Shown here: in pieces, positions 18,637 through 33,809 of the stretch
Numbering within the stretch: the first letter of the stretch is position 1
How the letters are laid out: the number at the start of each line of letters is the position of its first letter
Assembly (NCBI GenBank): GCA_903884235.1
Contig: CAISEB010000047.1
Location: 1-59,283, forward strand
DNA from: an uncultured Pseudomonadota bacterium
Lineage (GTDB): Bacteria > Pseudomonadota > Gammaproteobacteria > Steroidobacterales > Steroidobacteraceae
DNA length: 59,283 nucleotides
Direction: 5' to 3'
The notes under the pieces: generated by a model
Database searches by the model: none
What the model saw: only the letters and a program-made list of their open reading frames with translations
Told to the model about the DNA's origin: nothing
Program-made: the position numbers and the translations under genes

Positions 18637-19776
18637 CTAGTGGCGCGCCGGGACCGACGGACGCACCGGGGGCGCGGACATCAGCTCCACGAACTGGTGG
18701 GTGAACCGCGGCAGGTCCACATCGAGCTGGGCATGGACCTGGCGCACGGCGATCTCGGGCCGCACCTCATCGGTCCAGGTCAGCGTATTGCCGTAGGACG
18801 GGCCGTGGCTGATGTCGACGTCCATGTAGATCACCCGTTCCTTCGTGATGATCGCCGGATCGAGCCAGGCACACGCGGCCAGCTCATCCCACAGGTAGTA
18901 GCGCTCCGCGGAGTACTCGGCGATGTAGCGCGCTGCTGGATTGGTGGACCTGGAGATCGCGGCGACCATTTCGCCGGTGTACATCGCCTTGATCGAGACG
19001 TCGACCGTCGTCAGGTCCACGCGCGGCCAGTGCGCCCGCAGCACGATGTGCGCGGCCTCCGGATCGAACCAGAAGTTGAATTCGTGGCGCGGGCTCGAGG
19101 AGAACTCGGGATCGTCGGTATGCGGATTGAGGCTCCCGCCCATGATCACGATGCCGCTGGTGAGTTCGGCGAAGCGCGGATCGATCGACACCGCAAGCGC
19201 GATGTCCGTGAGCGGCCCGGCGGCGTAGATCGTCACCTCATGTGGATGGGCGTGGACCTGCCGGATCATGAAGTGGACGGCGTCCTCGGCGATCGGCTGG
19301 AGTTGCGGCTCCCCCTCGGGCAGCGGCGGCGTATCCCACGGACCCGGCATCACCGCGGGTCTCGGCGGTTCGACGAGGCCCGCCGGCGTCGTCTTGATCG
19401 AGGCCGGCTTCTGGCCCCAGGCGCCAAGCCAGCCGACCTGGCCAATGAGCGCCGTGCCGATGCGAGTCTCCTCCTGGGTGCGCACCAACGGAAAGACGGC
19501 GCCGAGGGCCACGGGCACGTCGCCACGCCCGATGCGCTCGAGCATCCGCAGGGTATGGCGCGCCTCGTCATCGCGCCAGCCGTTGCCGGTGACGATCGAG
19601 ATGCCGAGCACCTCAACGTCGGGCGCCTGGAGCAGCGCCATCATCGACATCATGTTCGAGCCCCCGGGCCCCGATCCGTCCTGGTCGATGAGCACCCGGC
19701 GTGATGCCGCCGCGGCCGGCAGCGAGGCCGCGACGGCCAGCGCGGTCACCAGAACTGTGCTCAGCATCCTTCTCAT
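18637..19776 (-). CDS. Exported nucleoside hydrolase (IUNH family), divergent metal motif
   Basis: A 379-residue enzyme of the inosine-uridine nucleoside N-ribohydrolase family, with a signal peptide (MRRMLSTVLVTALAVAASLPAAAA), hence periplasmic. Family features are VEVLGISIVTGNGWRDDEARHTLRMLE, YAAGPLTDIALAV, IVIMGGSLN and the FNFWFDPEAAHIVL segment. The usual N-terminal calcium motif DxDxGxDD is replaced by DQDGSGPGGSN, so either a variant site or altered substrate range is likely. The gene lies 47 bases after the ABC ATPase gene and is the last of that operon, which ties ribose release to ribose uptake. It is convergent with the patatin gene. Confidence 0.87.
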   Translation of the reverse strand: MRRMLSTVLVTALAVAASLPAAAASRRVLIDQDGSGPGGSNMMSMMALLQAPDVEVLGISIVTGNGWRDDEARHTLRMLERIGRGDVPVALGAVFPLVRTQEETRIGTALIGQVGWLGAWGQKPASIKTTPAGLVEPPRPAVMPGPWDTPPLPEGEPQLQPIAEDAVHFMIRQVHAHPHEVTIYAAGPLTDIALAVSIDPRFAELTSGIVIMGGSLNPHTDDPEFSSSPRHEFNFWFDPEAAHIVLRAHWPRVDLTTVDVSIKAMYTGEMVAAISRSTNPAARYIAEYSAERYYLWDELAACAWLDPAIITKERVIYMDVDISHGPSYGNTLTWTDEVRPEIAVRQVHAQLDVDLPRFTHQFVELMSAPPVRPSVPARH

Positions 19777-19823
19777 GGTCGATCCCCTGGTTATCGGCGC
19801 CGCCCAACGGCACGCCGTGGATT

Positions 19824-21350
19824 CTACGCGGCGTCGGGCCTGGCCAGCGGCGCGGCGAGCGCCGCCCGCATCAGCGCCTCGGGCGTCGCCTGCTCGCGCT
19901 CGAAAACGCCGGTCAGCCGCCCTCGGCTCAGGACCAGGATGCGATCGCTGAGGCCGATCAACTCCGGCAGCTCGCTCGAGACCAGCAGCACCGCGCAGCC
20001 CGCCGCCGTCAGGGCGTTGACGAGCGCGTAGAGCTCCATCTTCGCTCCGACGTCGATGCCACGCGTCGGCTCGTCGAGCATGATGACGCGGGGCAGCGTC
20101 ATCAGGGCCTTGCCGAGCACGACCTTCTGCTGGTTGCCGCCGGACAGCCGCCCGACGATCGCGGCGAGCCCGGCGGCACGGATCCCGAGCTTCTCGTACC
20201 ACTCGCGATTGCGCGCCGCCTCGGCGCCGCGCGCGAGGACGCCCGCGTGCGACAGGCGACCGAGCGATGACAAGGACAGGTTGAAGCCGACGGTCTGCTC
20301 GAGGCACAGGCCATAGCGACGTCGGTCCTCGGTCACGAATGCGAGTCCCGCACGGAGCCGCGCGGCGGGGCCGCCGGCATGCAGCGGCCGGCCGTCGAGC
20401 TGCACGCGACCGGAGATCCGATCGCCCCACGTTCCGTACAGGTGCGCGAGCAGCTCCGTACGCCCGGCCCCCATCAACCCACCGACGCCGAGCACCTCGC
20501 CGGCATGGAGGTCGAACGAGATGTCCGTCAGGCGCAGTCCGTCCCGCCCGGATGCCACGGCCAGGTCCCGAACCTCGAGCAGCGGCGTACCGAGGGGCGT
20601 GGAGCGGCGCGGGTAGAGATCGCGCACGTCGCGGCCGACCATGTGCCGGACCAGCGTCTCGGGATCCGCCGCGGCGATCGGCAGCGTCGCCACCGTGGCA
20701 CCGTCGCGCAGCACCGTCACGCGGTCGGCGAGCCTGGCCAATTCCTCGAGTCGGTGCGAGATGTAGATGAGGCCGATCCCGCGGGCGCGCAGGTCGCGGA
20801 GGATCGCGACCAGCACCTCGACCTCGTGTTCGGCAAGCGCCGCCGTCGGCTCGTCCAGGATCAGCACCCGGGATTCGCGCAACAGCGCCTTGACGATCTC
20901 GACCAGCTGCTTCTGCCCGATGCCGAGCGAGCGCATCGGCGCCGCCGGATCGAGGCCGACACCGAAGCGCGCGAGCGCCGCGGCCGCACGCCGTTCGGCC
21001 TCGGGCCGGTCGACGAAGATCCCGAGCCGCCGCGGCGGGCGACCGAGGAACAGGTTTTCGGCGACGCTCAGCTCGTCGATGCAGGACAGCTCCTGGTAGA
21101 TCACGGCAATGCCGGCATCTTGCGCATCGCGTATCGACGCGAAGCGCGCCTCCTGGCCGTCGAGGACGAGCTCTCCCTGGTAGCTGCCGAACGGATGCAC
21201 GCCGGACAGCAGCTTGATCAACGTGCTCTTGCCCGCGCCGTTCTCGCCACAGAGCGCGTGGATCTCGCCCGCCCGGAGATCGAAGCTGACATCGGCGAGC
21301 GCCGTGACGGCACCAAAGCGCTTGGTCAGGTGCCGCGCGCTGAGGATCAC
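19824..21350 (-). CDS. Ribose/nucleoside-type ABC transporter, double ATPase (RbsA-like)
   Basis: A 508-residue protein with two ABC ATPase domains. The first has Walker A GENGAGKST, signature LGIGQKQLVEI and Walker B LILDEPTAAL. The second has the degenerate Walker A GGLMGAGRTEL that is normal in RbsA/MglA proteins, the signature LSGGNQQKV and MLDEPTRGIDVGA. This fusion drives sugar (CUT2) importers. The start is GTG at 21350, overlapping the permease stop as GTGA. It works with the permease and lipoprotein encoded upstream. Confidence 0.93.
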   Translation of the reverse strand: MILSARHLTKRFGAVTALADVSFDLRAGEIHALCGENGAGKSTLIKLLSGVHPFGSYQGELVLDGQEARFASIRDAQDAGIAVIYQELSCIDELSVAENLFLGRPPRRLGIFVDRPEAERRAAAALARFGVGLDPAAPMRSLGIGQKQLVEIVKALLRESRVLILDEPTAALAEHEVEVLVAILRDLRARGIGLIYISHRLEELARLADRVTVLRDGATVATLPIAAADPETLVRHMVGRDVRDLYPRRSTPLGTPLLEVRDLAVASGRDGLRLTDISFDLHAGEVLGVGGLMGAGRTELLAHLYGTWGDRISGRVQLDGRPLHAGGPAARLRAGLAFVTEDRRRYGLCLEQTVGFNLSLSSLGRLSHAGVLARGAEAARNREWYEKLGIRAAGLAAIVGRLSGGNQQKVVLGKALMTLPRVIMLDEPTRGIDVGAKMELYALVNALTAAGCAVLLVSSELPELIGLSDRILVLSRGRLTGVFEREQATPEALMRAALAAPLARPDAA

Positions 21351-22288
21351 TCGCGCCGCCGCCAGGTATCGGCGAGGACCGCGACCACGATGACGATGCC
21401 GGTCACGACGCGCTTCAGCGGCTCCGATGCGCCCATCTGCACGAGGCCCGCCTCGAGCGTCGCGACGATCAGCACTCCGAGGAAGCTCTTCGCGACCGAG
21501 CCGCGCCCGCCAAGCAGGCTCGTTCCGCCCACGACGACGGCGGCAATCACGGATAGCTCGAAGCCGACGCCGGCGTTGGGATCGGCCGAACCGAGCCTGG
21601 AGCAGTTGAACACAGCGGCGAGCCCGGTCAGCGCGCCGAGCAATGCATGGGCCGCGATCCGCGGCCGGTCCACCGCGATGCCGGAAATCCGCGCGGCCTC
21701 GATGTTCGCGCCGACGGCGACCAGCTGGCGACCCAGCACGGTCAGCGAGAGCAGACCCTGGCCGAGCACCACGGCCACGACGGCGCACAGGAACGCGGGC
21801 GACACGACCAGGCCCGCGATCGGCGTCCCGATGCCCTCGACGGCATCGCCGATGTACTTCGTCCGGGAGTGGGCGGCGAGGAATGCGAGGCCGCGTGCGA
21901 TCTCGAGCATGCCGAGCGTCACGATGAACGACGGCAGGCGGAGCTTGACGCTGACGACGCCATTCGTGGCCCCGAGCGCGAGGCCAACGGCGATGCTGGC
22001 GACGATCGCCACGGGCAGGGACCAGCCCCAGTCGACCATCGTGACGCCGACCACCGTGCCGCAGAATCCGAGCACGGAACCGACCGACAGGTCGATGCCT
22101 CCCGTGACCATCAGCAGCGTCATCCCGGTCGCGACCAGGAGCAGGGCCGGGATCCGGTTCGCAACCGACCCCAGCGTCGCCGGGCTCAGGAACCCGGTCG
22201 AGAACTCGCCGAACAGGAGCACGAGCCCGGCCCACACCGCCAGCAGCACCAGCAGGTCGGCGATGGTTCCCCGCTTGAGAGCGAGCAT
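21347..22288 (-). CDS. Ribose/nucleoside-type ABC transporter permease (RbsC-like)
   Basis: A 313-residue inner-membrane permease of the CUT2/BPD_transp_2 family with 8-10 hydrophobic helices. Characteristic segments are TGGIDLSVGSVLGFCG, LPSFIVTLGMLEIARGLAF, VGANIEAARISGI and VVVGGTSLLGGRGSV. It forms the channel for the sugar delivered by the upstream lipoprotein. The gene starts 14 bases after that gene and overlaps the ATPase gene by 4 bases. Confidence 0.93.
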   Translation of the reverse strand: MLALKRGTIADLLVLLAVWAGLVLLFGEFSTGFLSPATLGSVANRIPALLLVATGMTLLMVTGGIDLSVGSVLGFCGTVVGVTMVDWGWSLPVAIVASIAVGLALGATNGVVSVKLRLPSFIVTLGMLEIARGLAFLAAHSRTKYIGDAVEGIGTPIAGLVVSPAFLCAVVAVVLGQGLLSLTVLGRQLVAVGANIEAARISGIAVDRPRIAAHALLGALTGLAAVFNCSRLGSADPNAGVGFELSVIAAVVVGGTSLLGGRGSVAKSFLGVLIVATLEAGLVQMGASEPLKRVVTGIVIVVAVLADTWRRRE

Positions 22289-22302
22289 GCGTCGCGGCGT
22301 CG

Positions 22303-23241
22303 CTAGCGGGTCACGACGTCGACCGGTGTCGCACGATCGACGCCCGGCTGGCCGGACTTCAGCGCCGCGAGCGCGAGTTCGATGCCGTCGACCGCGAGCT
22401 GGTCGGCGTGCTGGTCCGCCGTCGCGACGAGGCGCCCGTCAGCGAGCAGCGGCCTGACGGCGCCGATGTCATCGAAGCCCGCGACCAGCACCTCCCGCGA
22501 CTTGCCTGCGGCGGCGACGGCCGCGGCCGCGCCGATCGCCATGTTGTCGTTGCCGCACAGCAGCGCGCGCAGCTTCGGGTGCGACGTGAGCAGGTTGGCG
22601 GCGACCGCGTTCGCCTTGTCCATTTCCCACTCGGCGCTCTGCGTCGCGACCACGGTCATGCCCGCGGCCTTCATCGCGTCCTCGAATCCCGCCCGGCGCT
22701 GCTGGCCGTTGAACGCGGTGGTGACGCCCTCGATGATCGCGACCTCGTCACCCGCCTTCAGCTTGCCCGCGACGACTTCGCCGACGCGGCGCGCGCCATC
22801 CCGATTGTCGGGGCCCACGAATGCGGCCTTCAGTCCCGCCTGCCCGGCGACATCCGCGTCGAGGCGGTTGTCGATGTTCACGATCAGGACGCCCTGCAGC
22901 TCGGCGCGGTGCAATGCGGGGACGAGCGCCTTGGAGTCCGCCGGTGCGATCACGATTGCCTTCGCGCCCTGCGCGACCGCCTGCTCGACGAGATTGACCT
23001 GCTCGCCGATATCCGTCTCGTTCTTGATGCCGGACACGAGCAGCTCGTAGTCGCCCGCGTGGGCCGCCTGGTGGCGGCGCGCACCATCGGCCATCGTCGA
23101 GAAGAAATCATTGGCGAGCGACTTCATCACGAGCGCGACCTTCGGCCGCGCGCTGGGGTCGGTTCCCGGAGGATTCGCGGGCTTGCAGCCCGTCAGCGCC
23201 AGCAGCGTCCCCACAGCCAGTCCGACGACGATCGCACGCAT
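22303..23241 (-). CDS. Sugar ABC transporter substrate-binding lipoprotein (RbsB-like)
   Basis: A 312-residue periplasmic-binding-protein type 1 (RbsB family). The lipobox LTGC near residue 19 shows that it is a lipoprotein, not a free periplasmic protein. Family segments include LANDFFSTMADGARR, EQAVAQGAKAIVIAPADS, EGVTTAFNGQQRRAGFEDAM and ALLCGNDNMAIGA. RbsB-type proteins bind ribose and related furanoses; the context (nucleoside hydrolase in the same operon) favours ribose. It is the first gene of the operon, behind the promoter at 23286-23314. Confidence 0.92.
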   Translation of the reverse strand: MRAIVVGLAVGTLLALTGCKPANPPGTDPSARPKVALVMKSLANDFFSTMADGARRHQAAHAGDYELLVSGIKNETDIGEQVNLVEQAVAQGAKAIVIAPADSKALVPALHRAELQGVLIVNIDNRLDADVAGQAGLKAAFVGPDNRDGARRVGEVVAGKLKAGDEVAIIEGVTTAFNGQQRRAGFEDAMKAAGMTVVATQSAEWEMDKANAVAANLLTSHPKLRALLCGNDNMAIGAAAAVAAAGKSREVLVAGFDDIGAVRPLLADGRLVATADQHADQLAVDGIELALAALKSGQPGVDRATPVDVVTR

Positions 23242-23274
23242 GCCACGCCCCTGTATTCGAGTGTCGTTCTTGAA

Positions 23275-23294
23275 TTGCGCAAACGATTGTGCAA
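23275..23294. promoter_or_regulatory. LacI-type operator upstream of the ABC transporter operon
   Basis: TTGCGCAAACGATTGTGCAA is a 20-base near-palindrome (8 of 10 positions symmetric) with the central CG typical of LacI-family sites. It covers the -10 box of the transporter promoter and lies between the divergent lipoprotein and LacI genes, so repression by that LacI protein is the simplest reading. Confidence 0.7.
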
Positions 23295-23314
23295 CTCTGA
23301 TCCCAGAGCGTCAA
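23286..23314 (-). promoter_or_regulatory. Sigma70-type promoter of the ABC transporter operon
   Basis: On the minus strand: -35 TTGACG (23314-23309), a 17-base spacer and -10 CACAAT (23291-23286), 45 bases before the lipoprotein ATG. The -10 lies inside the LacI-type operator. Confidence 0.65.
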
Positions 23315-23350
23315 GCACCCCGCCAGGCCGCTGCGCAAGCTCGATTCCCC

Positions 23351-24463
23351 ATGCCGCACACGACCGCGCCCATGTCGCTGAAGTCCCTCGCCAGAGAGCT
23401 TGGCATCTCGGCGGCCACCGTGTCGCGGGTCCTGAGCGGCCAGGCCGAACGCCATCGGATTTCGATCGCGACGCGCGACCGGGTGCTCGGCGCCGCGCGC
23501 GCCTCGGGCCTGGTCGTCGACCAGCTCGCGCGCAGCCTGCGCCTGCGCCGCACGCAGTCGATCGGACTGCTGATTCCCGACATCTCGAACCCGTTCTTCG
23601 CGCAGCTCGCGCGCCAGATCGAGCGCCGCGCCCGTCATCATGGCTACTCGGTCCTGATCGCCGACAGCGAGGAAGATGCGGACGTCGAGGCTGCGGCGAT
23701 GACCCTCATGCTGAGCCGGCGCGTGGATGGCCTGATCGTTGCCCCCGTCGGCACGCCGGCCACGGACAACCCCCTGCGATCGCTCGGCGGCCGCCCGTGC
23801 GTGCTCGTCGACCGGCTGCTCGAGCAGCCGTCGCTCCCCGCGGTCACGAGCGACCATCGCCACGGTGCCGAGCTGGCGACCCAGCACCTCATCGCGCGCG
23901 GCCATCGACGCATCGGCTGCGTAGAGGGCAGTCCCGGGACATTCGCGAACGACGCGCGCATCGCAGGATGGCGCGCCGCGATGGCGAGCGCCGGCCTCGC
24001 CGCGGGCGACGACCTCGTCGCCGGCACCGGCTACTCGGTCGACGCCGGCGTCGCGGCGGCGCGCACCCTGCTGCGGCGGGCGGAACGGCCGACGGCGGTG
24101 CTGGCGCTCGGCAACGTGCTCGCGCTCGGCGTGCTGCAGGCCGCACGGGAAGAGCGGATCATCGTTCCGGACGACCTTTCGCTGGTGGCCTTCGATGACC
24201 AGCTCTGGGCCGCGGTCACGAGTCCAGCGCTGACGATCGTCGAACAGCCAATCGAGGCGCTCGGCCGCGAGGTCGTGGACCTGCTGCTGGAGCGCATCGC
24301 GGCGCCCTTGGACGACCCGCCCGCGCGCCGTATCCTGCCGGTGCGACTGATCGAGCGCGAATCGGTCCGCGACCTTGGCGCCGGGCGCGTCGTCCCTGCG
24401 CCTCCCGCGCAACGAACCCCCGACCCTCCCGCTCCGGCGCACGGCCGCGCCGGCGCCCGCTGA
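23351..24463 (+). CDS. LacI-family transcriptional regulator (of the ribose/nucleoside ABC operon)
   Basis: A 370-residue repressor. The helix-turn-helix is SLKSLARELGISAATVSRVL (start of protein), followed by the hinge region and a periplasmic-binding-like effector domain (SIGLLIPDISNPFFAQLARQ, then VDGLIVAPVG, and VAFDDQLWAAVTSPALTIV). The ATG at 23351 is used here; a second ATG at 23372 begins directly at the HTH. It is divergent from the transporter operon with one good operator between them. The likely effector is a ribose- or nucleoside-derived sugar (inference). The C-terminus carries a Pro/Arg-rich tail of about 30 residues. Confidence 0.92.
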   Translation: MPHTTAPMSLKSLARELGISAATVSRVLSGQAERHRISIATRDRVLGAARASGLVVDQLARSLRLRRTQSIGLLIPDISNPFFAQLARQIERRARHHGYSVLIADSEEDADVEAAAMTLMLSRRVDGLIVAPVGTPATDNPLRSLGGRPCVLVDRLLEQPSLPAVTSDHRHGAELATQHLIARGHRRIGCVEGSPGTFANDARIAGWRAAMASAGLAAGDDLVAGTGYSVDAGVAAARTLLRRAERPTAVLALGNVLALGVLQAAREERIIVPDDLSLVAFDDQLWAAVTSPALTIVEQPIEALGREVVDLLLERIAAPLDDPPARRILPVRLIERESVRDLGAGRVVPAPPAQRTPDPPAPAHGRAGAR

Positions 24464-24476
24464 CCCCGAGGCTTCC

Positions 24477-25070
24477 ATGTCCGACCCGACCTCCCCCGAA
24501 CGCCTGTACATTACCGCCGATGGCCTGCTCGCCGATTCCTACCGGCTGGCGCTCAAGGTCCTCGACAGTGGCTGCCGTCCGACGCACATCGCCGGGATCT
24601 GGCGCGGCGGCACGCCGGTCGGCATCGCCGTGCAGGAACTGCTGGATTTCTGGGGCATCAAGACCGATCACATCGCGATCCGCACGTCGCTGTACACCGG
24701 GATCGGCACGACCGCCGAAAGGGTCCGGGTACACGGCCTCGACTATCTGGTGCGCAAGCTCAATGCCGAGGACTCGCTGCTGATCGTCGACGACGTCTAC
24801 GACTCGGGTCGCAGCGTGCGGCAGGTCATCGACGACCTGCGCGCCAAGTGCCGACGCAACACGCCCGACATCCGCATCGCCACCATCTACTGCAAGCCGG
24901 CGAGCTGCGTCGCGCCCGGGGTCCCGCACTACTACCTGCACGACACCGATCGCTGGCTCGTGTTCCCGCACGAGCTGGCCGGGCTCAGCATCGACGAGAT
25001 CCTCGAGCGCAAGCCCGGCATCGAGGCGATCCGCGACCGCCTCGGCGAACTGCGGGATCGTCGATCCTAA
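24477..25070 (+). CDS. Purine (xanthine/hypoxanthine-type) phosphoribosyltransferase
   Basis: A 197-residue type I phosphoribosyltransferase. The PRPP-binding motif is LLIVDDVYDSGRSVRQV (V104-S113 core), preceded by GIWRGGTPVGIAVQELL and followed by DRWLVFPHEL, a pattern of hypoxanthine/xanthine phosphoribosyltransferase-like proteins. It would convert a free purine base plus PRPP to the nucleotide in the cytoplasm. It follows the LacI gene by 13 bases on the same strand and fits the locus as the base-salvage step after nucleoside cleavage. The base preference is not certain. Confidence 0.87.
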   Translation: MSDPTSPERLYITADGLLADSYRLALKVLDSGCRPTHIAGIWRGGTPVGIAVQELLDFWGIKTDHIAIRTSLYTGIGTTAERVRVHGLDYLVRKLNAEDSLLIVDDVYDSGRSVRQVIDDLRAKCRRNTPDIRIATIYCKPASCVAPGVPHYYLHDTDRWLVFPHELAGLSIDEILERKPGIEAIRDRLGELRDRRS

Positions 25071-25081
25071 CCGGCGACGCG

Positions 25082-26617
25082 TCAGCGTGCCTCGCCCCAG
25101 TAGCGCCCGGCGACATCGAGGGCGTCGTGACGGAACCCGGCGCCCGCATGCACCGGCTCCGCGAACTCGAGATAGGGATCCGCACGCGGGTCGTAGGCAG
25201 GCCAGTAAGGCAGGCCGGCGCCGTTCGGGTCGCCGCGCGTGGCGAAGCGCGCCCAGTAGCGGCGCATCGTGCGCGACAGGATGTGATCGCCGGCATCGGC
25301 GCCGACCCGCCACGGCACGAATCCGGGCGCGTCGAGAGTGCCGAACACGTAGCGGACGGACTCGGAATGCCACGGCGCGGGCGGCCGGTTGGCGAGGCTC
25401 TTCGTGAACAGGTAGGCGTACGTGCGCAGCCCCGCATTCGCTGCCGCACGCGCGACCATGCGGCCGGACTCATTGAACACCGCGTCGCCGAGCACGGCCG
25501 ACATCGCCCCCTGCGCCGCGGCGTCGTCAGCGACGGGAGTGGCGCGCAGCACCTCGGGCGCCAGCGTCCGGAAATGCCTCGCGACCCAGCCCTCGTAGCT
25601 CGCCTTGGTCTGCTTCTGGTCCGGGGGCATGAACATGCCTCCCTCGTCGGCGTTGTAGCCGACGACGACGACCGCCGGATTGATCGCACCCCGCGCAAAG
25701 GCGTCCCGTGGCTGCTCCGGGAGCAGGTCGCCGTCGAGCGTCGGCGACGGGAACTCCATGTCCATGAGCTCGTGCGATGTATGCGGGAAGAAGTCGAAAT
25801 TGTGGCTGAGCAGCTGCCCGGCCGGCAGCTTGCGCAACGCGCCGATGTCGGCGCCGAGTCGTGCTCCGGCCGCCTCGGCATCTGCCTGGGCACTGAGCCA
25901 CGGGACCGTCGTGCTCTGCAGGATCGCCGTCTGGAACAGTTCCTTCGCCCGCGGCGACACCAGCAGCATCGCCACCGAGACAGCGCCGGCGGATTCACCG
26001 AAGATCGTTACGCGCGCGGGATCGCCGCCGAAGGCCGCGATGTTCTCGTGGATCCACCGCAGTGCGGCGATCTGGTCCATCAGTCCATAGTTCCCGGAGG
26101 CATGGCGTGGCGACTCGGTCGCGAGCCCGGGGTGCGCGAGGAACCCGAGCACGCCCACCCGGTAGTTGAGGTTGACGACGACCACGCCCTCGCGCGCGAG
26201 CGCCGCGCCGTCGTAGAGCGCATACGCCCCGCTGCCACCGATGAATCCACCGCCGTAGAGGTACACGATGACCGGCCGACGCGCCGCCGCCCCGTGCGCC
26301 GGTGTCCAGATGTTCAGCGTCAAGCAGTCCTCGCTGAAGGGCACGCCGGAACTGACGATCCAGGGCGCCTGCATGCAGTCATTGCCGAACCGGGTCGCAT
26401 CGCGTACGCCGGCCCATGGCTTCACCGGCATCGGCGCGTGCCAGCGCAGCGGGCCGACGGGCGGCGCGGCGTAGGGAATGCCCCGGTACACCTCCGGGTA
26501 GCCACTGGAGCCGCGAACGGCGCCGGTACGAGTGACGACGACCGGCCCACCGGCCGCCCCCGCCGGCAGCGAGACGACCGTCAGGCTGACGAGCGCGGCG
26601 ATCCGCAGCCACTTCAC
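25082..26617 (-). CDS. Secreted type-B carboxylesterase
   Basis: A 511-residue esterase with a signal peptide (MKWLRIAALVSLTVVSLPAGAAG). Type-B carboxylesterase features are YRGIPYAAPPVGPLRW, SEDCLTLNIWTP, the oxyanion hole YGGGFIGGS and the nucleophile GESAG (S209). The start is GTG at 26617, with AGGAG 7 bases upstream. It overlaps the stop of the nucleoside hydrolase gene as GTGA, so the two are translationally coupled. That placement suggests removal of ester groups from nucleosides or a related substrate in the periplasm; this is inferred only from context. Confidence 0.9.
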   Translation of the reverse strand: MKWLRIAALVSLTVVSLPAGAAGGPVVVTRTGAVRGSSGYPEVYRGIPYAAPPVGPLRWHAPMPVKPWAGVRDATRFGNDCMQAPWIVSSGVPFSEDCLTLNIWTPAHGAAARRPVIVYLYGGGFIGGSGAYALYDGAALAREGVVVVNLNYRVGVLGFLAHPGLATESPRHASGNYGLMDQIAALRWIHENIAAFGGDPARVTIFGESAGAVSVAMLLVSPRAKELFQTAILQSTTVPWLSAQADAEAAGARLGADIGALRKLPAGQLLSHNFDFFPHTSHELMDMEFPSPTLDGDLLPEQPRDAFARGAINPAVVVVGYNADEGGMFMPPDQKQTKASYEGWVARHFRTLAPEVLRATPVADDAAAQGAMSAVLGDAVFNESGRMVARAAANAGLRTYAYLFTKSLANRPPAPWHSESVRYVFGTLDAPGFVPWRVGADAGDHILSRTMRRYWARFATRGDPNGAGLPYWPAYDPRADPYLEFAEPVHAGAGFRHDALDVAGRYWGEAR

Positions 26618-27600
26618 GGCGCACTCCTGGCTGGGACCCGGACGAGGTCGTCCATCATGCGCTCGAGGGCGACACCCTCGTCGATCGCGAGGCAGACGCC
26701 CGCGTTCGGCGCACCCGCCGCAGCCCGCGTGAACCCGCGCACGTCGACCTCGATGCGCATCGGCTCCAGCCTGCACAGCGCGGGGTCGAGGAGCCAGACG
26801 ACCGGCACCGCATCGAACAGAGTCGGGGTCAGCTGGCCCCAGGCATTGAGCAGGCGCCACTGGTGATAGAGCAGCGCGAGCGAATCGGACGCGCCCGACC
26901 CGAGCGCGAAGAGGCGATCCCGATGGACCTCGTCGAACTTCACCTGCGTGGAGTCGAGCGGGAACATCTCCACGGGCACGCCGGCCGCGAGCAGCACCGA
27001 GAATCCGGCCGGCGCCGAGGCAACGTTGTACTCGGCATGGGGCGTCCACTGCGGAATCGCGCCGCCGAGGTTGTAGCCGCGCCGCACGGACCCGGCCATG
27101 ATCGCAACGTCATGGAAGCGACGCAAGGCCCCGGAATCGCGCTCGGCGAGCGCCTGGATGTTCGTCAGCGGAGCCAGCGCGACGAGCGTGATCGCACCCG
27201 GGCGCCGTAGCGTTGCATCGCGTAGGAACTCGACGGCATCGGGCGCAGGGCCCTGATCCCGCGCCCCCAGCGCCCACTGCCGCTGCGTGAACGGCGTCGC
27301 ATTCGGGGTGGACGGACCCTCCGCGACCGGAATGTCCTCGCGACCCATCGCGGCGAGCAGCCGCCGCACCAGCAGCGCGCGGGCATGCGTGTCGCCCCAC
27401 GCGGTCGTGATCCCCACGACCTCGAGGCGCGGATCGTTGATCGCGACAACGATCGCGAACGCATCATCCACGTCGTCACCGACGTCGGTATCGATGATGA
27501 CCGGCTGGCGAGCGGCGCCGGCCGGCGCCGCCAGTATCGCGGCACTCCAGGCGAGCGACGCGACCGCAACGAGACCCGCGATGCGACGACGAGCGAACAT
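26614..27600 (-). CDS. Exported nucleoside hydrolase (IUNH family), canonical metal site
   Basis: A 328-residue nucleoside N-ribohydrolase. A signal peptide (MFARRRIAGLVAVASLAWSA) precedes VIIDTDVGDDVDDAFAIV, the calcium/ribose motif in the form usual for exported members. Further family segments are LVALAPLTNIQALAE, IMAGSVRRGYN, AEYNVASAPAGFSVLLAAGVPV and FPLDSTQVKF. It should split nucleosides into ribose and base in the periplasm. It starts 28 bases after the NCS2 permease stop and overlaps the esterase start by 4 bases. Confidence 0.92.
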   Translation of the reverse strand: MFARRRIAGLVAVASLAWSAAILAAPAGAARQPVIIDTDVGDDVDDAFAIVVAINDPRLEVVGITTAWGDTHARALLVRRLLAAMGREDIPVAEGPSTPNATPFTQRQWALGARDQGPAPDAVEFLRDATLRRPGAITLVALAPLTNIQALAERDSGALRRFHDVAIMAGSVRRGYNLGGAIPQWTPHAEYNVASAPAGFSVLLAAGVPVEMFPLDSTQVKFDEVHRDRLFALGSGASDSLALLYHQWRLLNAWGQLTPTLFDAVPVVWLLDPALCRLEPMRIEVDVRGFTRAAAGAPNAGVCLAIDEGVALERMMDDLVRVPARSAP

Positions 27601-27628
27601 CGGACCCCCAATGCTGCCGCCGGCGCGG

Positions 27629-28939
27629 CTAGGCGATATAGATGAACCGCGCCACGAACAGCGCCGCGAGCACGTAGACGAGCCAGTCACTGCGACGCGC
27701 CTCGCCATTGACGAGCTTGAGCAGGGCGTAGGTCGTGATCCCGAACGCGAGTCCATTCGCGATCGAGAAGCTGAGCGGGATCATGACCACCGTCACGAAC
27801 GCCGGAATCGCCGCCGCCGGCTCGTTCCAGTCCACCTCGGCCAGCGTGCCGAGCATCATCGCGCCGACAAGGATCAGGGCGGGCGCCGTGGCCGATGCCG
27901 GGATCGCCTGCACGAGCGGCGCAAAGAACAGCGTGACCAGGAACAGCAGGCCAACGACCACGGCCGTGAGCCCGGTACGCCCGCCCGCGGTCACGCCGGA
28001 GGCGCTCTCGATGTAACTCGTGACGGGGCTCGTACCGGCGATGGCGCCCGCCGCCATGGCCAGCGAATCGACGACCAGGATCCGGTTCAGCCGCGGCACG
28101 GAACCGTCCTTCGCCATGAGGCCCGCGTTGCGTGTCACCGCGACCAGCGTGCCGACGTTGTCGAACAGGTCGACGAACAGGAATACGAATACGATCTCGA
28201 GCAGCGACATGCCGATGCCGCCCTTGAGGTTGAGTGCGCCGCGGATATCGAGCTTGCCCATCGTCGCCGACAGGTCGGCGAGCGAGTGGCCGCCCGGCGC
28301 CATGTGGCCGAGCCCGACGGCCCAGCCGAGCGCGGCGGTCAGGAGGATGCCGAGCAGCATCGCTCCTTTGATCCGGCGCACCTGCAACGCCGCGATCAGC
28401 ACGATCCCGAACAGCGAAACGGCGGCGCCTGGCGCGGTCAGGCTGCCGAGCCCGACCATCGTGCCCGGCTTCGCGACGATGATCCCTGCATCCGCGAGGC
28501 CGATGAAGGCGATGAACAAGCCGACGCCGCCGCCGACGGCCGAGAACAGCCAGCGCGGCAGCGCGCCGATGATGAGCTGGCGGACGCCGACGGCCGTCAG
28601 CAATAGGAACGCGACGCCGGAGAGGAACACGCAGCCGAGCGCGGTCTCCCACGGCACGCCCATGCCCTTGACGACCGTGAAGGTGAAGTAGGCATTGAGT
28701 CCCATGCCGGGGGCCATCGCGAGCGGGTAGTTGGCGACGAGGCCCATCAGGATGCAGCCAAACGCCGCCGCGAGGCAGGTGGCGGCGGCGACGGCCGCGA
28801 CCGGCATTCCGGTGGTGCCGAGGATGGCGGGGTTGACGACGACGATGTAGGCCATCGTCAGGAAGGTCGTCAGGCCGGCGACCAGCTCGGTGCGGACATT
28901 GGTCCCACGCCCCGCAAGATCGAAGTAACGCTCCAGCAT
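27629..28939 (-). CDS. NCS2-family purine base permease (AzgA/PbuG-like)
   Basis: A 436-residue inner-membrane transporter. RTELVAGLTTFLTMAYIVVV, NPAILGTTGMP, LAMAPGMGLNAYFTFTVVKG and SYIESASGVTAGGRTGL are the signatures of the AzgA branch of NCS2, which carries adenine, guanine or hypoxanthine with H+. I chose the ATG at 28939 because it begins the conserved MLERYFDL; an in-frame ATG at 28975 adds 12 residues. In this locus it would import the base released by the exported nucleoside hydrolase encoded directly downstream. Confidence 0.92.
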   Translation of the reverse strand: MLERYFDLAGRGTNVRTELVAGLTTFLTMAYIVVVNPAILGTTGMPVAAVAAATCLAAAFGCILMGLVANYPLAMAPGMGLNAYFTFTVVKGMGVPWETALGCVFLSGVAFLLLTAVGVRQLIIGALPRWLFSAVGGGVGLFIAFIGLADAGIIVAKPGTMVGLGSLTAPGAAVSLFGIVLIAALQVRRIKGAMLLGILLTAALGWAVGLGHMAPGGHSLADLSATMGKLDIRGALNLKGGIGMSLLEIVFVFLFVDLFDNVGTLVAVTRNAGLMAKDGSVPRLNRILVVDSLAMAAGAIAGTSPVTSYIESASGVTAGGRTGLTAVVVGLLFLVTLFFAPLVQAIPASATAPALILVGAMMLGTLAEVDWNEPAAAIPAFVTVVMIPLSFSIANGLAFGITTYALLKLVNGEARRSDWLVYVLAALFVARFIYIA

Positions 28940-29020
28940 GAAGGCACCCCGTCGCCTGACCGCAAGAGGTCGCATTGAACCCCACCGGGAGGGCGACGGC
29001 TACCCTGCGCCGGCGGAAGG

Positions 29021-29050
29021 ACGGACGTGCCGCCGTCGCGGCACGTCCGT
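29021..29050 (-). terminator. Perfect 13-bp hairpin between receptor and permease genes
   Basis: ACGGACGTGCCGC (29021-29033) and its exact reverse complement (29038-29050) flank the loop CGTC. It lies 11 bases after the receptor stop on the minus strand. The run after the stem has few T residues, so it may reduce rather than stop transcription into the permease gene, or protect the receptor mRNA. Confidence 0.55.
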
Positions 29051-29061
29051 AAGGCCGCAGT

Positions 29062-31428
29062 TCAGAATTTCACGCTGACCTGGGCGCCGACGATGCGCGG
29101 ATCATTGATCATGCCGGTTGCGTTCTCGAAGTCAATCGCGCCGATCGCGCGGATCTGGTTCGTGCAGTTGCGGCAGAACGCGGCGACGTCGTACTTCTTG
29201 TCCGCCCAGGTGTAGCCGACGCGCAGGCCGCCCTGCGTCATCGCAGGACCGGTGAACTCGGTCGCCTCGTACAGGAAGAAGTTGATCTTGCTGCGGTACG
29301 ACCAGTCCGTGTACGCGTAGAACTCCCCGTCGCCCGCCCCGACCGGCACAGAATAGCGCAGCGACACGTCGGCAATGTACTTCGCCGCCTGCGGCAGCGG
29401 GTTGCCGTTGATCAGCACGTTGCCGTTGCTGTCGAGCGGATTGGTCACGTTGCAGTGCACGTCGGCGAGCGCCGGATTCGCGCTGGCGACGAACGACCAG
29501 TCGAAGCAATGACCCACCGCCAGGTTCTTGTCCTTGATCTTCGTGTCGTTGAGGCTGCCGCTGACATTCAGCGACAGCGTCGGGGTCAGCTGTGCCGAGA
29601 ACTCGAGTTCCGCACCCTGCCCGATCGAGTGCGCCGCATTGAGCAGCGTCGTCGTGTTCGCGAGGCCACCGACCGCCGTCAGCTGCTGGTGGCTGACGTC
29701 GTAGTAGAACACGTCGAATGCGACCCGGGCACGTCGGTTCCACAGGTCAGACTTCACGCCGGCTTCGTACGAGATATTGGTTTCGGACCTGGCGACGGCG
29801 ATATCCGTCGTGTTGTTCGGCGCGCCGAAGCTCGGCGCGCGGAAGCCCGTAGCGACGCGCGCATAGACGTTGGTGTCCGCAGCGACCTGGTAGGTCGCGC
29901 TCAGGTCCCAGCTGACGTTCGTCGCACTCGCGGCCTTGTAGTACGAGTACAGCGGGATCGGGGTCCCGTCGGCAAGCTCCGACACCGGCACGGAGAACGT
30001 CTTGTGGTCGTTCGTGAAGCGCACGCCGCCGCGTACCTTGAAGGCCGACGTCACCGCGTACTCGAGGGAACCGAAGACGGCCTGCGCATCGTTCTTCTGG
30101 CGCGAGTTCGTGGTGTCGAGGAACACGACGCCGGTCTGGCTGATGTTGTGCGAGCTGTCCTCGACATCCTCGTCGAAGAGGAACACGCCCGCCTGGGCGG
30201 TCAGCGCCGACGACACGTTCCACAATGCGCGAACTTCCTGCGTGATCTGGCGGTGATGCTTGATGCCACCGCCGCTCTCGACCGAGAACGGAATGAAGCC
30301 GGGGCCGGACGCGTCGGCGGGCGCGCAGCCGGTCGGGGCGAAGTTGCAGAACACGTTGCCGGACCCGTAGCCGCCGTCGATGTCGCCGATGGTGTTGTAG
30401 TGCAGGATCGACTCGTAACCGGTGATCGACTGGATCGTCACGCTCGGCAGGGTCCAGGTCAGGTGAACGTTGCCACCGGCCATGCTGTAGGACTGACCGT
30501 TGTAGCCGTCGGCGTAGAACTTCGCCGGGTCGAAGCCGGGCACCAGGCTGTTGGTGCCGAGCTGGATGATGTTCGCGCGGAACAGCCGGGCCGATCCGCC
30601 GAGGGTACGGCCGTGCACGTTGAACAGCGCGCTGAAGCTGTCGCTCGGCTTGTACAGCAGCTGGATGCGCGCCGCCCAGTCGTCGTAGCCCTCGAGACTG
30701 GTGTGGTTGATCGGGTCGTCGACCCAGTTGTCGCGATGCTGGCCCTGCGTCGAGAAGCGCATCGCGACCTGCTCGCTGAGCGGCAGGTTGACGACGCCCT
30801 CCATCACCGAGGTGTTGTAGGTGCCATCCGACAGACTGCCGTAGCCCGAGAACTGCCCGAGCACGGGCTTCGCGGACTCGAGCTTGACGACGCCGGCGGG
30901 CGAATTGCGCCCGAACAGCGTGCCCTGCGGGCCGCGCAGGACCTCGACGTCCGCCTGGTCGAAGATCGGGAAGCCCTTCAGCGCCGGGTTCTCCTGGACG
31001 ACGTCGTCGTACACCAGCGAGACCGGCTGCGAGGCGAACGAGGTGAAGTCCGTGTTGCCGTAGCCGCGGATGTAGAAGCGCGGGAACGTGCGGCCGTTCG
31101 AGGACTCGATATTGAGGCTCGGCACGCGGAACGCGAGCTGCCGGATGTCATCGCCCGCGCTGCCGATCGCGGCGAGCGGCTCGCCGGCGAGCACGGACGT
31201 CGAAACCGGCACGTCGAGCAGGCGTTCCTCGTGGCGAGTCGCCGTCACGATGATCTCGGAGAGCGTCGCGCCCTCGGACTCGGCCGCCTGGACGCCCGAC
31301 GGCAGCAGCACGGCGGCGGCCGACAGGCCCGCGACGACCGACACGAGATGGCGTGCACCGACCTGCTGCAGCTGGCTGGCAATGGCATTGCGCAGCGCGA
31401 GCGACGCGCGCGACTGGATCCTGTTCAT
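29062..31428 (-). CDS. TonB-dependent outer-membrane receptor (nucleoside locus)
   Basis: A 788-residue receptor with a long signal peptide ending near residue 48, TonB-box region LSEIIVTATRHEERL (about 56-70), plug motif ADVEVLRGPQGTLFGRNSPAG and a barrel ending in VSVKF with the required terminal Phe. The ATG at 31428 has GGAGGT 6 bases upstream. The location between the purine permease/nucleoside hydrolase genes and ribokinase suggests nucleosides, or oligonucleotide- or ester-linked nucleosides, as substrate (inference). It is preceded by a promoter with a LacI-type operator over the -10 box. Confidence 0.93.
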   Translation of the reverse strand: MNRIQSRASLALRNAIASQLQQVGARHLVSVVAGLSAAAVLLPSGVQAAESEGATLSEIIVTATRHEERLLDVPVSTSVLAGEPLAAIGSAGDDIRQLAFRVPSLNIESSNGRTFPRFYIRGYGNTDFTSFASQPVSLVYDDVVQENPALKGFPIFDQADVEVLRGPQGTLFGRNSPAGVVKLESAKPVLGQFSGYGSLSDGTYNTSVMEGVVNLPLSEQVAMRFSTQGQHRDNWVDDPINHTSLEGYDDWAARIQLLYKPSDSFSALFNVHGRTLGGSARLFRANIIQLGTNSLVPGFDPAKFYADGYNGQSYSMAGGNVHLTWTLPSVTIQSITGYESILHYNTIGDIDGGYGSGNVFCNFAPTGCAPADASGPGFIPFSVESGGGIKHHRQITQEVRALWNVSSALTAQAGVFLFDEDVEDSSHNISQTGVVFLDTTNSRQKNDAQAVFGSLEYAVTSAFKVRGGVRFTNDHKTFSVPVSELADGTPIPLYSYYKAASATNVSWDLSATYQVAADTNVYARVATGFRAPSFGAPNNTTDIAVARSETNISYEAGVKSDLWNRRARVAFDVFYYDVSHQQLTAVGGLANTTTLLNAAHSIGQGAELEFSAQLTPTLSLNVSGSLNDTKIKDKNLAVGHCFDWSFVASANPALADVHCNVTNPLDSNGNVLINGNPLPQAAKYIADVSLRYSVPVGAGDGEFYAYTDWSYRSKINFFLYEATEFTGPAMTQGGLRVGYTWADKKYDVAAFCRNCTNQIRAIGAIDFENATGMINDPRIVGAQVSVKF

Positions 31429-31590
31429 CGTGACCTCCGGTGTTGCTCGCAAGACACAGATCGGCCGCGCGAGCGAGTTGTACGTTCCCCTACCTGGTCG
31501 CATCGGCTCTCGTGGCCGGTCGGATCGATGTCGGGTAGACCCCGGACCGTGGCTGCGCCACCGGCCCCGCACCGTCCGTTGCTTATGCCA

Positions 31591-31606
31591 AGTGAAACGT
31601 TACACT
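31591..31606. promoter_or_regulatory. LacI-type operator upstream of the TonB-dependent receptor gene
   Basis: AGTGAAACGTTACACT is a 16-base near-palindrome (7 of 8 positions symmetric) with the AACGTT centre common to LacI/PurR-family sites. It overlaps the -10 box of the receptor promoter. The LacI protein encoded at 32826-33809 is the nearest candidate. Confidence 0.7.
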
Positions 31607-31630
31607 ACAGAGCGTTCTACAGGGTGTCAA
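31602..31630 (-). promoter_or_regulatory. Sigma70-type promoter of the TonB-dependent receptor gene
   Basis: On the minus strand: a consensus -35 TTGACA (31630-31625), a 17-base spacer and -10 TAGTGT (31607-31602). The -10 is inside the LacI-type operator. Confidence 0.65.
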
Positions 31631-31876
31631 AGCGCCACAGCCGTGCACTGCGCCGAGTCGGACGATGATTGCCGGATGCGCGACCTGATCAGGCCGGGCG
31701 CCGGGGCGCCGGCCGCCGCGCGATCGAAGCACGCTGTCAGGCGACACGCCGCGGGACTTCGGCAGCGCCGAATGTTGCGATAAACATACAATCGGTACCG
31801 AGCGTGATTTCATCAGTTTACGTTGCGTACCTCAGGCGCAGAACGATGTCGGCCGACGCCCGTCCGCGAGGCCACG

Positions 31877-32818
31877 ATGACCCGGCGTGACGTGCTCGTG
31901 ATCGGCAGCGCGAACGTCGACGTGTCGGTCACCACGGCGCGCCTGCCCCGTCCCGGCGAAACCGTCACCGGCCACAGTTCCCTGATCAGCGTCGGCGGCA
32001 AGGGCGCGAACCAGGCGGTGGCCGCCGCCCGCTGCGGCGCCACGACGCGCTTCGCGGCATGCGTCGGCGACGACGCCTTCGGTCGGATGGTGCTCGAGCG
32101 GCTCGATGACCGAGGCGTCGACCGCCGCGCTGTCCAGGTGCTGCACGGGCGCGCCACGGGACTCGCCACGATCCTCGTCGATGCGGCGGGCCAGAATTGC
32201 ATCGCCGTCGCCTCGGGCGCCAATGCCGAACTCACGCCGGAGCGCATCGACGCGCTTGCAGGCTCGATCGCCGCGGCTGGCGTGGTGGTCCTGCAATGCG
32301 AGATCCCGATGGCATCGGTCTACCGCGCGGTCGAGATCGCGGCGGCCGCCGGTGCGCGCGTGATCCTCAACCCGGCGCCCTTTCGCGGGCTCGATCTCGC
32401 TCGAATCCGCGGCCGCGTCGACGTGCTGGTCCCGAACGAGACCGAGGCGGCACAGATCCACCGCCACGCGGTGACGACATCCGCCGAGGCGGCGGCGGCC
32501 GCGCTGGCGCTGCACGCCGCCGGGATCGCCAACGTGATCATCACGCTCGGCGCGAACGGCTGCGTGCTCGCCGCAGCCGGCGAGGTACGCGCCTTCCCGC
32601 CCCACATCGTCGATGCGATTGACGCGACCGGCGCCGGCGACGCATTCGTCGGCTGCCTGGCCGCGAGCCTCGCTGCGGGGGATCCGCTGCCGCAGGCGAT
32701 CGAGCGGGCAACCGTGTACGCGGCGCTGTCCACGACGCGGCAGGGGGCGCAGGCGTCCTACGCGGACCTCGGTGATCTCGAGCGCGCCCTCGCGGCAGGC
32801 CGCCGCACGCATCCCTAG
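31877..32818 (+). CDS. rbsK: Ribokinase (PfkB family)
   Basis: A 313-residue sugar kinase. It has the N-terminal GSANVDVSV, the PfkB signature 1 core GGKGANQA (40-47) and signature 2 DATGAGDAF with the catalytic Asp at about 255, all in the form found in ribokinases. It would convert imported ribose to ribose 5-phosphate in the cytoplasm, feeding the pentose phosphate pathway and PRPP, the co-substrate of the phosphoribosyltransferase at 24477. I chose the ATG at 31877, which begins the core fold. The LacI gene follows 7 bases later, so the two are one operon. Confidence 0.92.
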   Translation: MTRRDVLVIGSANVDVSVTTARLPRPGETVTGHSSLISVGGKGANQAVAAARCGATTRFAACVGDDAFGRMVLERLDDRGVDRRAVQVLHGRATGLATILVDAAGQNCIAVASGANAELTPERIDALAGSIAAAGVVVLQCEIPMASVYRAVEIAAAAGARVILNPAPFRGLDLARIRGRVDVLVPNETEAAQIHRHAVTTSAEAAAAALALHAAGIANVIITLGANGCVLAAAGEVRAFPPHIVDAIDATGAGDAFVGCLAASLAAGDPLPQAIERATVYAALSTTRQGAQASYADLGDLERALAAGRRTHP

Positions 32819-32825
32819 ACCGACC

Positions 32826-33809
32826 ATGGCGACATTGCGTGACATCGCGCATGCCGTCGGGGTCTCGGTCACGACGGTATCCAACGTCGTCAACGGGCGA
32901 CCGAACGCCAGCCCCGAGCTGCGCGCCCGCGTCCTCGCCGCGGCGGAGGAGCTCGGCTATCGCCCCAATCGTGCCGCGCGCGCCATGCGCACCGGCCGCA
33001 CCAGCACCCTCGGACTCGTGCTCCCGGACCTGACGAACCCGTTCTTCCCGGAACTCGCACAGGCGGTCGAGAACACGGCGCGCAGCGCCGGCCTCCTGGT
33101 CTGCCTCATCGACAGCCAGAGCCGGCCCGAAGGGGAAGCGGACGGGTTCGCGCTGCTGATGCAGCACCGGGTCGACGGCGTGATCTGGTGCCCGCTCGGC
33201 GCCACCACGCCGCCCACGCTGAAGGACTTCGACAAGCCGATCGTGCTGATCGATCGCCCGCGCGCGGGCTACGACGTCGTGCAGTCGGACTATGCGATGG
33301 GCGGGCGCCTGCTGGCCGCGCACGCGCTCGCCACCGGCCACACGCGCATCGGCCTCCTGTCCGGGCCACACGGGGTCGAGAGCGCGCGCCAGCGCCGCGA
33401 CGGGTTCGTCGGTGCCCACCCGGACTCTCTCGAAATCGCCTGGGAGATCAATGTCGATTTCGACGGCACGCTGCCGCCCGAGGCGGTGACCGCCCTCACC
33501 CGCCGGCGCTCCGCGACCCTCGTCGTATGCGGCAACGACCTGATCGCGATCAGCGCGATCCGCTGCCTCGCCGAACGCGGCCTGCGAGTCCCGCACGACG
33601 TCTCGGTGACCGGCTTCGACAACATACGCTGGACCGATCTCGTCACCCCACGCCTGACCACGATCGCACAGCCGATCGGCGCGATCGGCGCGAAGGCGGT
33701 CGAGGTGATGCTGGAGCGCATGTCGGGCACGGCGCATGTCAGCCGCAGGACGATCTTCGACGTCGCGCTCGTCACGCGCGACTCGGTCCGGCCGCCGCGA
33801 CGCGGATAG
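32826..33809 (+). CDS. LacI-family transcriptional regulator (of the nucleoside locus)
   Basis: A 327-residue repressor with the HTH TLRDIAHAVGVSVTTVSNVV, hinge YRPNRAARAMRTGRT and an effector domain beginning STLGLVLPDLTNPFFPELAQ; later come VDGVIWCPLG and VTGFDNIRWTDLVTPRLTTI. It is co-transcribed with the ribokinase gene (7-base gap). The operator upstream of the divergent receptor gene is its likely target. The effector may be ribose, ribose 5-phosphate or a nucleoside (inference). Confidence 0.92.
   Translation: MATLRDIAHAVGVSVTTVSNVVNGRPNASPELRARVLAAAEELGYRPNRAARAMRTGRTSTLGLVLPDLTNPFFPELAQAVENTARSAGLLVCLIDSQSRPEGEADGFALLMQHRVDGVIWCPLGATTPPTLKDFDKPIVLIDRPRAGYDVVQSDYAMGGRLLAAHALATGHTRIGLLSGPHGVESARQRRDGFVGAHPDSLEIAWEINVDFDGTLPPEAVTALTRRRSATLVVCGNDLIAISAIRCLAERGLRVPHDVSVTGFDNIRWTDLVTPRLTTIAQPIGAIGAKAVEVMLERMSGTAHVSRRTIFDVALVTRDSVRPPRRG

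Follow-up and report, generated by a model that had tools for sequence, protein, structure and literature searches.

In Bacteroides, loci for ribose and nucleoside utilisation unite a TonB-linked receptor of the SusC/SusD type with ribose and nucleoside enzymes, and Tsx of Escherichia coli is a channel, not a TonB-dependent receptor (TBDT). In the excerpted report on the Nuh hydrolase of Pseudomonas aeruginosa, adenosine and inosine are described as split in the periplasm and their products as imported separately, with the transporter for adenine, and any protein serving in the outer membrane, stated as not identified; the same excerpt places the Rih hydrolases of E. coli in the cytoplasm (PMC5437708). 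In Xanthomonas albilineans, the TBDTs XALc_0643 and XALc_0646 and a putative nucleoside hydrolase form a putative operon for which the authors, in the excerpt of their report, suggest carbohydrate transport (PMC3542200). Here we describe a twelve-gene locus, probably for the scavenging of purine nucleosides, at positions 18637-33809 of contig CAISEB010000047.1 (GenBank assembly GCA_903884235.1), a stretch of 59,283 nucleotides (hereafter the window) from an uncultured gammaproteobacterium of the family Steroidobacteraceae, whose genome assembly spans 4.12 Mb and is 95% complete.

Going by those excerpts, the locus resembles the P. aeruginosa system in its predicted periplasmic cleavage and separate uptake of the products but adds a receptor and an AZG-type permease within the locus, while the X. 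albilineans group, likened here by description only, shares the combination of TBDT and hydrolase but is not credited in its excerpt with a purine permease or ribose importer. The Rih enzymes belong to the same IU-nucleoside hydrolase family but are cytoplasmic according to the excerpt, whereas the window's hydrolases are predicted to bear signals. The Bacteroides loci, likened by description and not by sequence, also join a receptor to ribose and nucleoside enzymes, but no SusD was found among the window's locus genes. A SusC/SusD-type locus was rejected, as the TBDT reached only 28 of 368 bits for TIGR04056 and no SusD family was found among the locus proteins scanned. The reading made from the window's letters alone (hereafter the sequence-only reading) knew of no described proteobacterial locus with this whole gene set; we likewise found none in the open-licence literature among the matches listed, but the scheme has precedents in P. 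aeruginosa Nuh and X. albilineans, and the locus is therefore an unusually complete new variant and not a wholly new scheme.

We consider it probable, judging from family membership and gene neighbourhood, that the locus encodes purine-nucleoside scavenging in two units. In the first, assigned to the regulator LacI2, the TBDT would carry purine nucleosides into the periplasm, the nucleoside hydrolase NH2 would split them there and the AZG-type NCS2 permease would import the freed base. In the second, assigned to LacI1, the hydrolase NH1, which shares one operon with RbsBCA, would likewise split periplasmic nucleosides, and RbsBCA would import the ribose. In the cytoplasm, RbsK would then form ribose 5-phosphate, and the nucleotide would be made from phosphoribosyl pyrophosphate, by the phosphoribosyltransferase PRT when the base is hypoxanthine, guanine or xanthine and by Apt, encoded elsewhere in the genome, when it is adenine. 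The esterase might remove acyl groups from an acylated substrate, though this is a guess. Gene content, layout, conserved operators, conservation and family membership were observed; ligands, periplasmic location, substrate specificity and the pairing of repressors with operators are what we infer.

All twelve genes are contiguous, with no foreign gene among them in family scans of the window's proteins, which agrees with the uninterrupted set named by the sequence-only reading; its term 'self-contained' hides two units with separate operators. The locus consists of two divergent operon pairs, with gene starts read from the junction sequences. In the left pair, the minus-strand genes rbsB (22303-23241; RbsB-type sugar-binding protein), rbsC (21347-22288; RbsC-type permease), rbsA (19824-21350; RbsA-type ATPase with two ABC domains), all identified by family matches, and NH1 (18637-19776; PF01156) face the plus-strand genes lacI1 (23372-24463; LacI-family regulator by family match, with an alternative in-frame ATG 21 bp further upstream) and PRT (24477-25070; purine phosphoribosyltransferase). 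In the right pair, the minus-strand genes for the TBDT (29062-31428; a plug and barrel and the proposed nucleoside receptor), the NCS2 permease (27629-28939; PF00860), NH2 (26614-27600; PF01156) and a type-B carboxylesterase (25082-26617; family match) face rbsK (31877-32818; PF00294) and lacI2 (32826-33809; LacI-family regulator, PF00356 over cut-off) on the plus strand. GTGA overlaps connect the start of rbsA with the stop of rbsC and the start of the esterase gene with the stop of NH2.

A conserved palindromic operator belongs to each divergent pair, and its exact sequence is found at a single place in the window's genome (the palindromes also read on the opposite strand, with 2 or 3 mismatches). 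On the TBDT side this is AGTGTAACGTTTCACT (31591-31606, minus strand), upstream of the receptor gene and divergent from rbsK-lacI2; the motif AGTGTAACGTTTYACT was present in the TBDT-rbsK region of all seven genomes compared, as well as in locus L040 and in G012. The rbsB-side operator, TTGCGCAAACGATTGTGCAA (23275-23294, plus strand), lies between lacI1 and rbsB, and TTGCGCAAWCGATTGTGCAA, with at most two changes, precedes rbsB in 5 of 5 genomes including G001, which keeps it though no lacI1 was seen there. Across 150 genomes of the family, the exact TBDT-side operator was found in six, once each, and its backward control had no match; all six carry NH2 and the locus, with 17 of the 150 (G669-G685) not searched for NH2. 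Backward controls in the window's genome gave one match at ≤2 mismatches for the TBDT-side operator and none for the rbsB-side operator. By eye, the TBDT-side operator overlaps the -10 element of a TTGACA-17-TAGTGT promoter that the consensus scan did not list, and the rbsB-side operator overlaps a promoter-like site from that scan (minus strand, 23314-23286); the scan returned 2 sites versus 0.9 ± 0.9 in shuffles, and a terminator scan 4 versus 4.1. The two regulators are 34% identical, and the best curated match of both is RbsR, below its cut-off. LacI2 would bind the TBDT-side operator and regulate the TBDT operon, and LacI1 would bind the rbsB-side operator and regulate rbsBCA-NH1.

Using window proteins as queries, we found the whole set kept in three genomes of the same genus, G005, G006 (on two contigs) and G010 (where NH1 adjoins lacI2), and the TBDT half, rbsK-lacI2 against TBDT-NCS2-NH2-esterase, in G147, G338 and G353 of a second genus; the arrangement is therefore non-random, and the search for a conserved neighbourhood that the sequence-only reading had proposed came out in its favor. 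Chance clustering was rejected by this synteny in two genera together with the operator survey. Partial versions include NCS2-NH2-esterase on a 4-kb contig of G012, with lacI2-rbsK, operator and TBDT on another; a contig of G362 (second genus) truncated at NCS2-NH2-esterase; the order NCS2-TBDT-rbsK-lacI2-NH1 in L040; and a reduced locus, rbs genes-PRT-NCS2-rbsK-NH1, in G001. NH2-like proteins (E ≤ 1e-40) occur in 12 of 396 genomes of the order, comprising five of this genus, four of the second and three of a third; E values were below 1e-100 in the nine genomes of the first two genera, which belong to the same family, and 1e-59 to 6e-55 in the third. The third-genus proteins (G024, G313 and G340; 35-38%) were rejected as locus members, with no core nearby, and in G313 a distant TBDT (31%) lies ~6 kb from the NH2-like gene. 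Among more distant hydrolase loci of the order (L008-L017), 5 of 10 have a ribokinase-like neighbour.

The second genus departs from the window on the sugar side. No rbsBCA match was found in the stretches compared, and G147 has in its place a PF07168 (ureide permease) protein, with a sugar-transport model below its cut-off. Two other G147 proteins encoded near the locus exceed NCBIfam cut-offs, DeoC and a PF00962 deaminase of the adenosine deaminase family; a PRT, an aldehyde dehydrogenase and an NH1 of diverged sequence (39%) are encoded there too, and G338 and G353 contain open reading frames that resemble these extra genes by eye. The DeoC, deaminase and other extra genes point to the handling of deoxyribose and adenine at the locus in this genus.

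Several features suggest that the locus uses purines. Compared with solved transporters, the NCS2 permease matched only AZG1 (9.4e-75) and AZG2 chains at E ≤ 0.01; these are its nearest solved relatives, and it is putatively an AZG-type adenine/guanine permease. No second PF00860 protein was found in the genome. PRT is nearest to archaeal purine phosphoribosyltransferases, and the other four PF00156 proteins found in the genome are Prs, Apt, PyrE and PurF, leaving PRT as the sole hypoxanthine/guanine/xanthine candidate found. In G005, an adenine deaminase (TIGR01178, 563 bits versus a cut-off of 472.5) lies within the locus, between the gene of a GH127-family protein and the esterase. No PF00962 match was found in the window's genome, in which a TIGR01178-type enzyme was not searched for outside the locus, and PF01048 matched a single protein there, an MTA phosphorylase, other phosphorylase families not having been searched. 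A further indication comes from a Trp-Asp pair in NH1, described next.

NH1 and NH2 are the only PF01156 proteins in the assembly, and both fall below the Rih cut-offs though they belong to the IU-nucleoside hydrolase family. NH2 exceeds the PF01156 cut-off and retains the fingerprint Asp residues, with D37, D39, D45, D46 and D263 invariant in all five aligned rows and two extra residues inside the fingerprint; at the last metal Asp it has Phe-Asp (5/5 rows), and its preference is therefore less clear. Purine-specific nucleoside hydrolases of group II, according to the excerpted source, have a Trp before the last metal Asp and another in the beta3-alpha3 loop (PMC8910321). In NH1 (PF01156, 2.1e-55), a Trp-Asp pair ahead of the C-terminal part aligns with the His-Asp of protozoan enzymes and is invariant in 50 of 50 aligned rows, and two near-invariant Trp fall in the likely beta3-alpha3 loop, where the structural model is weak (mean pLDDT 67, residues 91-100). 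These rows come from a homologue search with the peptides RHEFNFW and IDQDGSGP that kept 80 of 174 related loci; 72 of the 80 fitted a text pattern (the 8 others were not inspected), and 49 of the 72 were aligned with the window. Because those peptides served as queries, the conservation of both stretches is partly selected.

The sequence-only reading gave both hydrolases signal peptides, and signal-like N-termini were indeed found for both by 12-residue mean hydropathy, a simple measure used here in place of SignalP. Hydrophobic N-terminal stretches with values of 2.1-2.6 occur in NH1, NH2, the esterase (predicted to be exported), RbsB and the TBDT, as opposed to 0.8 in PRT and 1.5 in RbsK, which have no such stretch. 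RbsB also carries a TGC lipobox and is likely a lipoprotein; its G005 counterpart has VGC.

The receptor matched PF07715 (1.3e-12) and PF00593 (1.2e-24), both over cut-off, and no NCBIfam receptor model over its cut-off. Its place in the nucleoside set, proposed by the sequence-only reading, was supported by comparison: the TBDT accompanies NH2 and the permease in all seven genomes whose contigs reach far enough, that of the window among them, and related receptors elsewhere lie near nucleoside genes. Searching 274 genomes of the class at E ≤ 1e-120 retrieved seven genomes including the window's. The TBDT of G535 shares 42% identity with that of the window and has deoB, udk, nupC, deoC, tdk, upp, deoA and cdd as neighbours; when used as a query in 148 genomes of its order it identified, by receptor similarity alone, 24 places in 23 genomes. 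Both nupC and deoC were near the receptor in 8 of the 24 (G535, G831, G805a, G736, G818, G748, G782 and G728), the seven further receptors being 53-73% identical to that of G535. These loci share a related TBDT with the window but have NupC and cytoplasmic-type phosphorylases or kinases, whereas the window has predicted exported hydrolases and separate import of base and sugar. In a ninth place, G790 (like G535 from an order other than the window's), an NH1-like hydrolase (39%) adjoins the TBDT on the same strand (L181:7700-11163). This hydrolase has a signal-like start.

In a receptor tree built from the last 820 residues, the seven window-type receptors had G790 as their sister (100/100), and 16 rows labelled as linked to such genes fell within one clade of 30 (96/99), requiring 3 changes of label versus a shuffled mean of 13.0, with 0 of 500 shuffles as low. 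Labels were set by hand from a limited set of query proteins, and the truncated contigs G795, G823 and G745 were counted as unlinked. Relabelling G042b, a linked receptor outside the clade, gave 17 linked rows and 4 changes versus 13.3 in shuffles, again with none of 500 as low. We advance only tentatively the wider idea that a branch of TBDTs, in relatives that we take to be Gammaproteobacteria, is devoted to nucleosides and comes in two forms. One would supply NupC and cytoplasmic phosphorylases, the other exported hydrolases combined with separate import of base and sugar; the window's form, with its esterase and, in relatives, GH127, would handle decorated purine ribosides, and NH1 would be an active hydrolase with a changed metal site. 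The tree would extend the prediction to genomes that carry nupC/deo genes and are complete, such as G736 and G805 with one contig each. The locus offers a candidate outer-membrane receptor and base permease for the kind of steps stated as not identified in the excerpted report on P. aeruginosa (PMC5437708), and the TBDT-side operator marks a regulon.

The fingerprint of NH1, DQDGSGPGGSN, aligns as DQD-(GSG)-PG-GSN and departs from the canonical DxDxxxDD in that it has three extra residues and that Ser-Asn replaces the final Asp pair, as might be expected of a degenerate, non-catalytic paralogue. We nevertheless judge such degeneration improbable: Ser-Asn is invariant in 4 of 4 rows of the genus, the remaining active-site residues vary little or not at all among the 50 aligned rows, and the AlphaFold2 model (pLDDT 86.5) has a confident hydrolase fold whose best Foldseek match is the purine-specific hydrolase of S. 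solfataricus (3t8i, 3.0e-23). Among the 72 homologues, the last fingerprint position is Asn in 57 and Asp in 15, and Asn therefore probably takes the place of that Asp. Should NH1 prove active, the metal fingerprint regarded as canonical for nucleoside hydrolases would be less rigid than its description implies.

Another alternative holds that the locus mainly serves the use of ribose or furanosides, with the hydrolases acting as ribosidases and the permease and PRT incidental. The ribose-type importer, the ribokinase (TIGR02152, 314.7 bits versus a cut-off of 299.65), two regulators with RbsR as best curated match, although below cut-off, and GH127 in relatives would all fit, but the presence of a purine permease gene in the operon of the receptor, a purine PRT paired with lacI1, the adenine deaminase in G005 and receptor relatives that accompany NupC and phosphorylases make this explanation very improbable. 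The esterase raises another prospect, that the receptor imports a decorated nucleoside (acylated or with an extra furanosyl group) which the esterase and the relatives' GH127 trim before the hydrolases act. The esterase gene overlaps NH2 and goes with it in all nine genomes with a strong NH2, and a GH127-family gene stands beside it, towards PRT, in all seven relatives whose contigs show this side (G005, G006, G010, G147, G353 and, in part, G012 and G338). Yet the window has only ~11 bp between PRT and the esterase (25070-25082), with GH127 and adenine deaminase absent there, and keeps the rest; nor does any result implicate a decorated nucleoside, and we regard this version as unlikely.

Purine-nucleoside scavenging by two units remains our preferred explanation, with several observations on the other side of the balance. 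The scheme of the sequence-only reading gained from the purine-type permease and PRT and from NH1 in the rbsBCA operon, and lost from the altered NH1 fingerprint and from the esterase and relatives' GH127, for which it has no place. RbsA, RbsB and RbsC fell below every curated equivalog cut-off shown, reaching the level of the wider sugar ABC family. NH2 is present in only 5 of the 15 genomes of the genus, and in the 40 kb compared in G001 there was no TBDT, NH2, lacI gene or close esterase, one weak esterase match (28%) lying elsewhere in the same 40 kb. Of the 30 clade receptors, 14, including the nearest pair G561a and G409, had no linked genes detected, and G042b, one of nine ingroup receptors outside the clade, has an RpiB-DeoC protein linked to it at a distance of 2.5 kb, which shows that linkage also occurs beyond the clade; in G042 (L190:8672-13144 and L146:5510-11610), ribokinase-type, hydrolase, NupC and pyrimidine phosphorylase genes are ~17-22 kb from the TBDT. 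Finally, at the 71 of 80 NH1-homologue loci titled Acidobacteriota, the rest of the locus was not found nearby, window gene queries giving only generic ABC ATPase, lipid-kinase and oxidoreductase matches.

The NH1 subfamily fingerprint DQDGxGPGG(S/T)(N/D) (L030-L109) is common in records titled Acidobacteriota, and transfer of NH1 between phyla is likely. The Acidobacteriota relatives were rejected as guides to function, their common neighbours resembling housekeeping genes (by eye, not family-searched); neighbours were clustered by protein family at 74 loci (L034-L109 less L035 and L040), three of them not titled Acidobacteriota.

Directly after the TBDT stop codon is a hairpin with a 13-bp perfect stem (29021-29050, minus strand). 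Folding was strong here in all four of the genus's genomes that were compared, although the sequences of G005, G006 and G010 differ, whereas in three genomes of the second genus the spacer after the TBDT is too short for a hairpin; the structure may allow the receptor to be expressed at a higher level than the downstream genes. At the other end of the locus, a plus-strand gene (16392-18614) whose product has a Patatin domain (PF01734) ahead of one of the Omp85 type (PF01103) adjoins NH1, as it does in G005 and G006.

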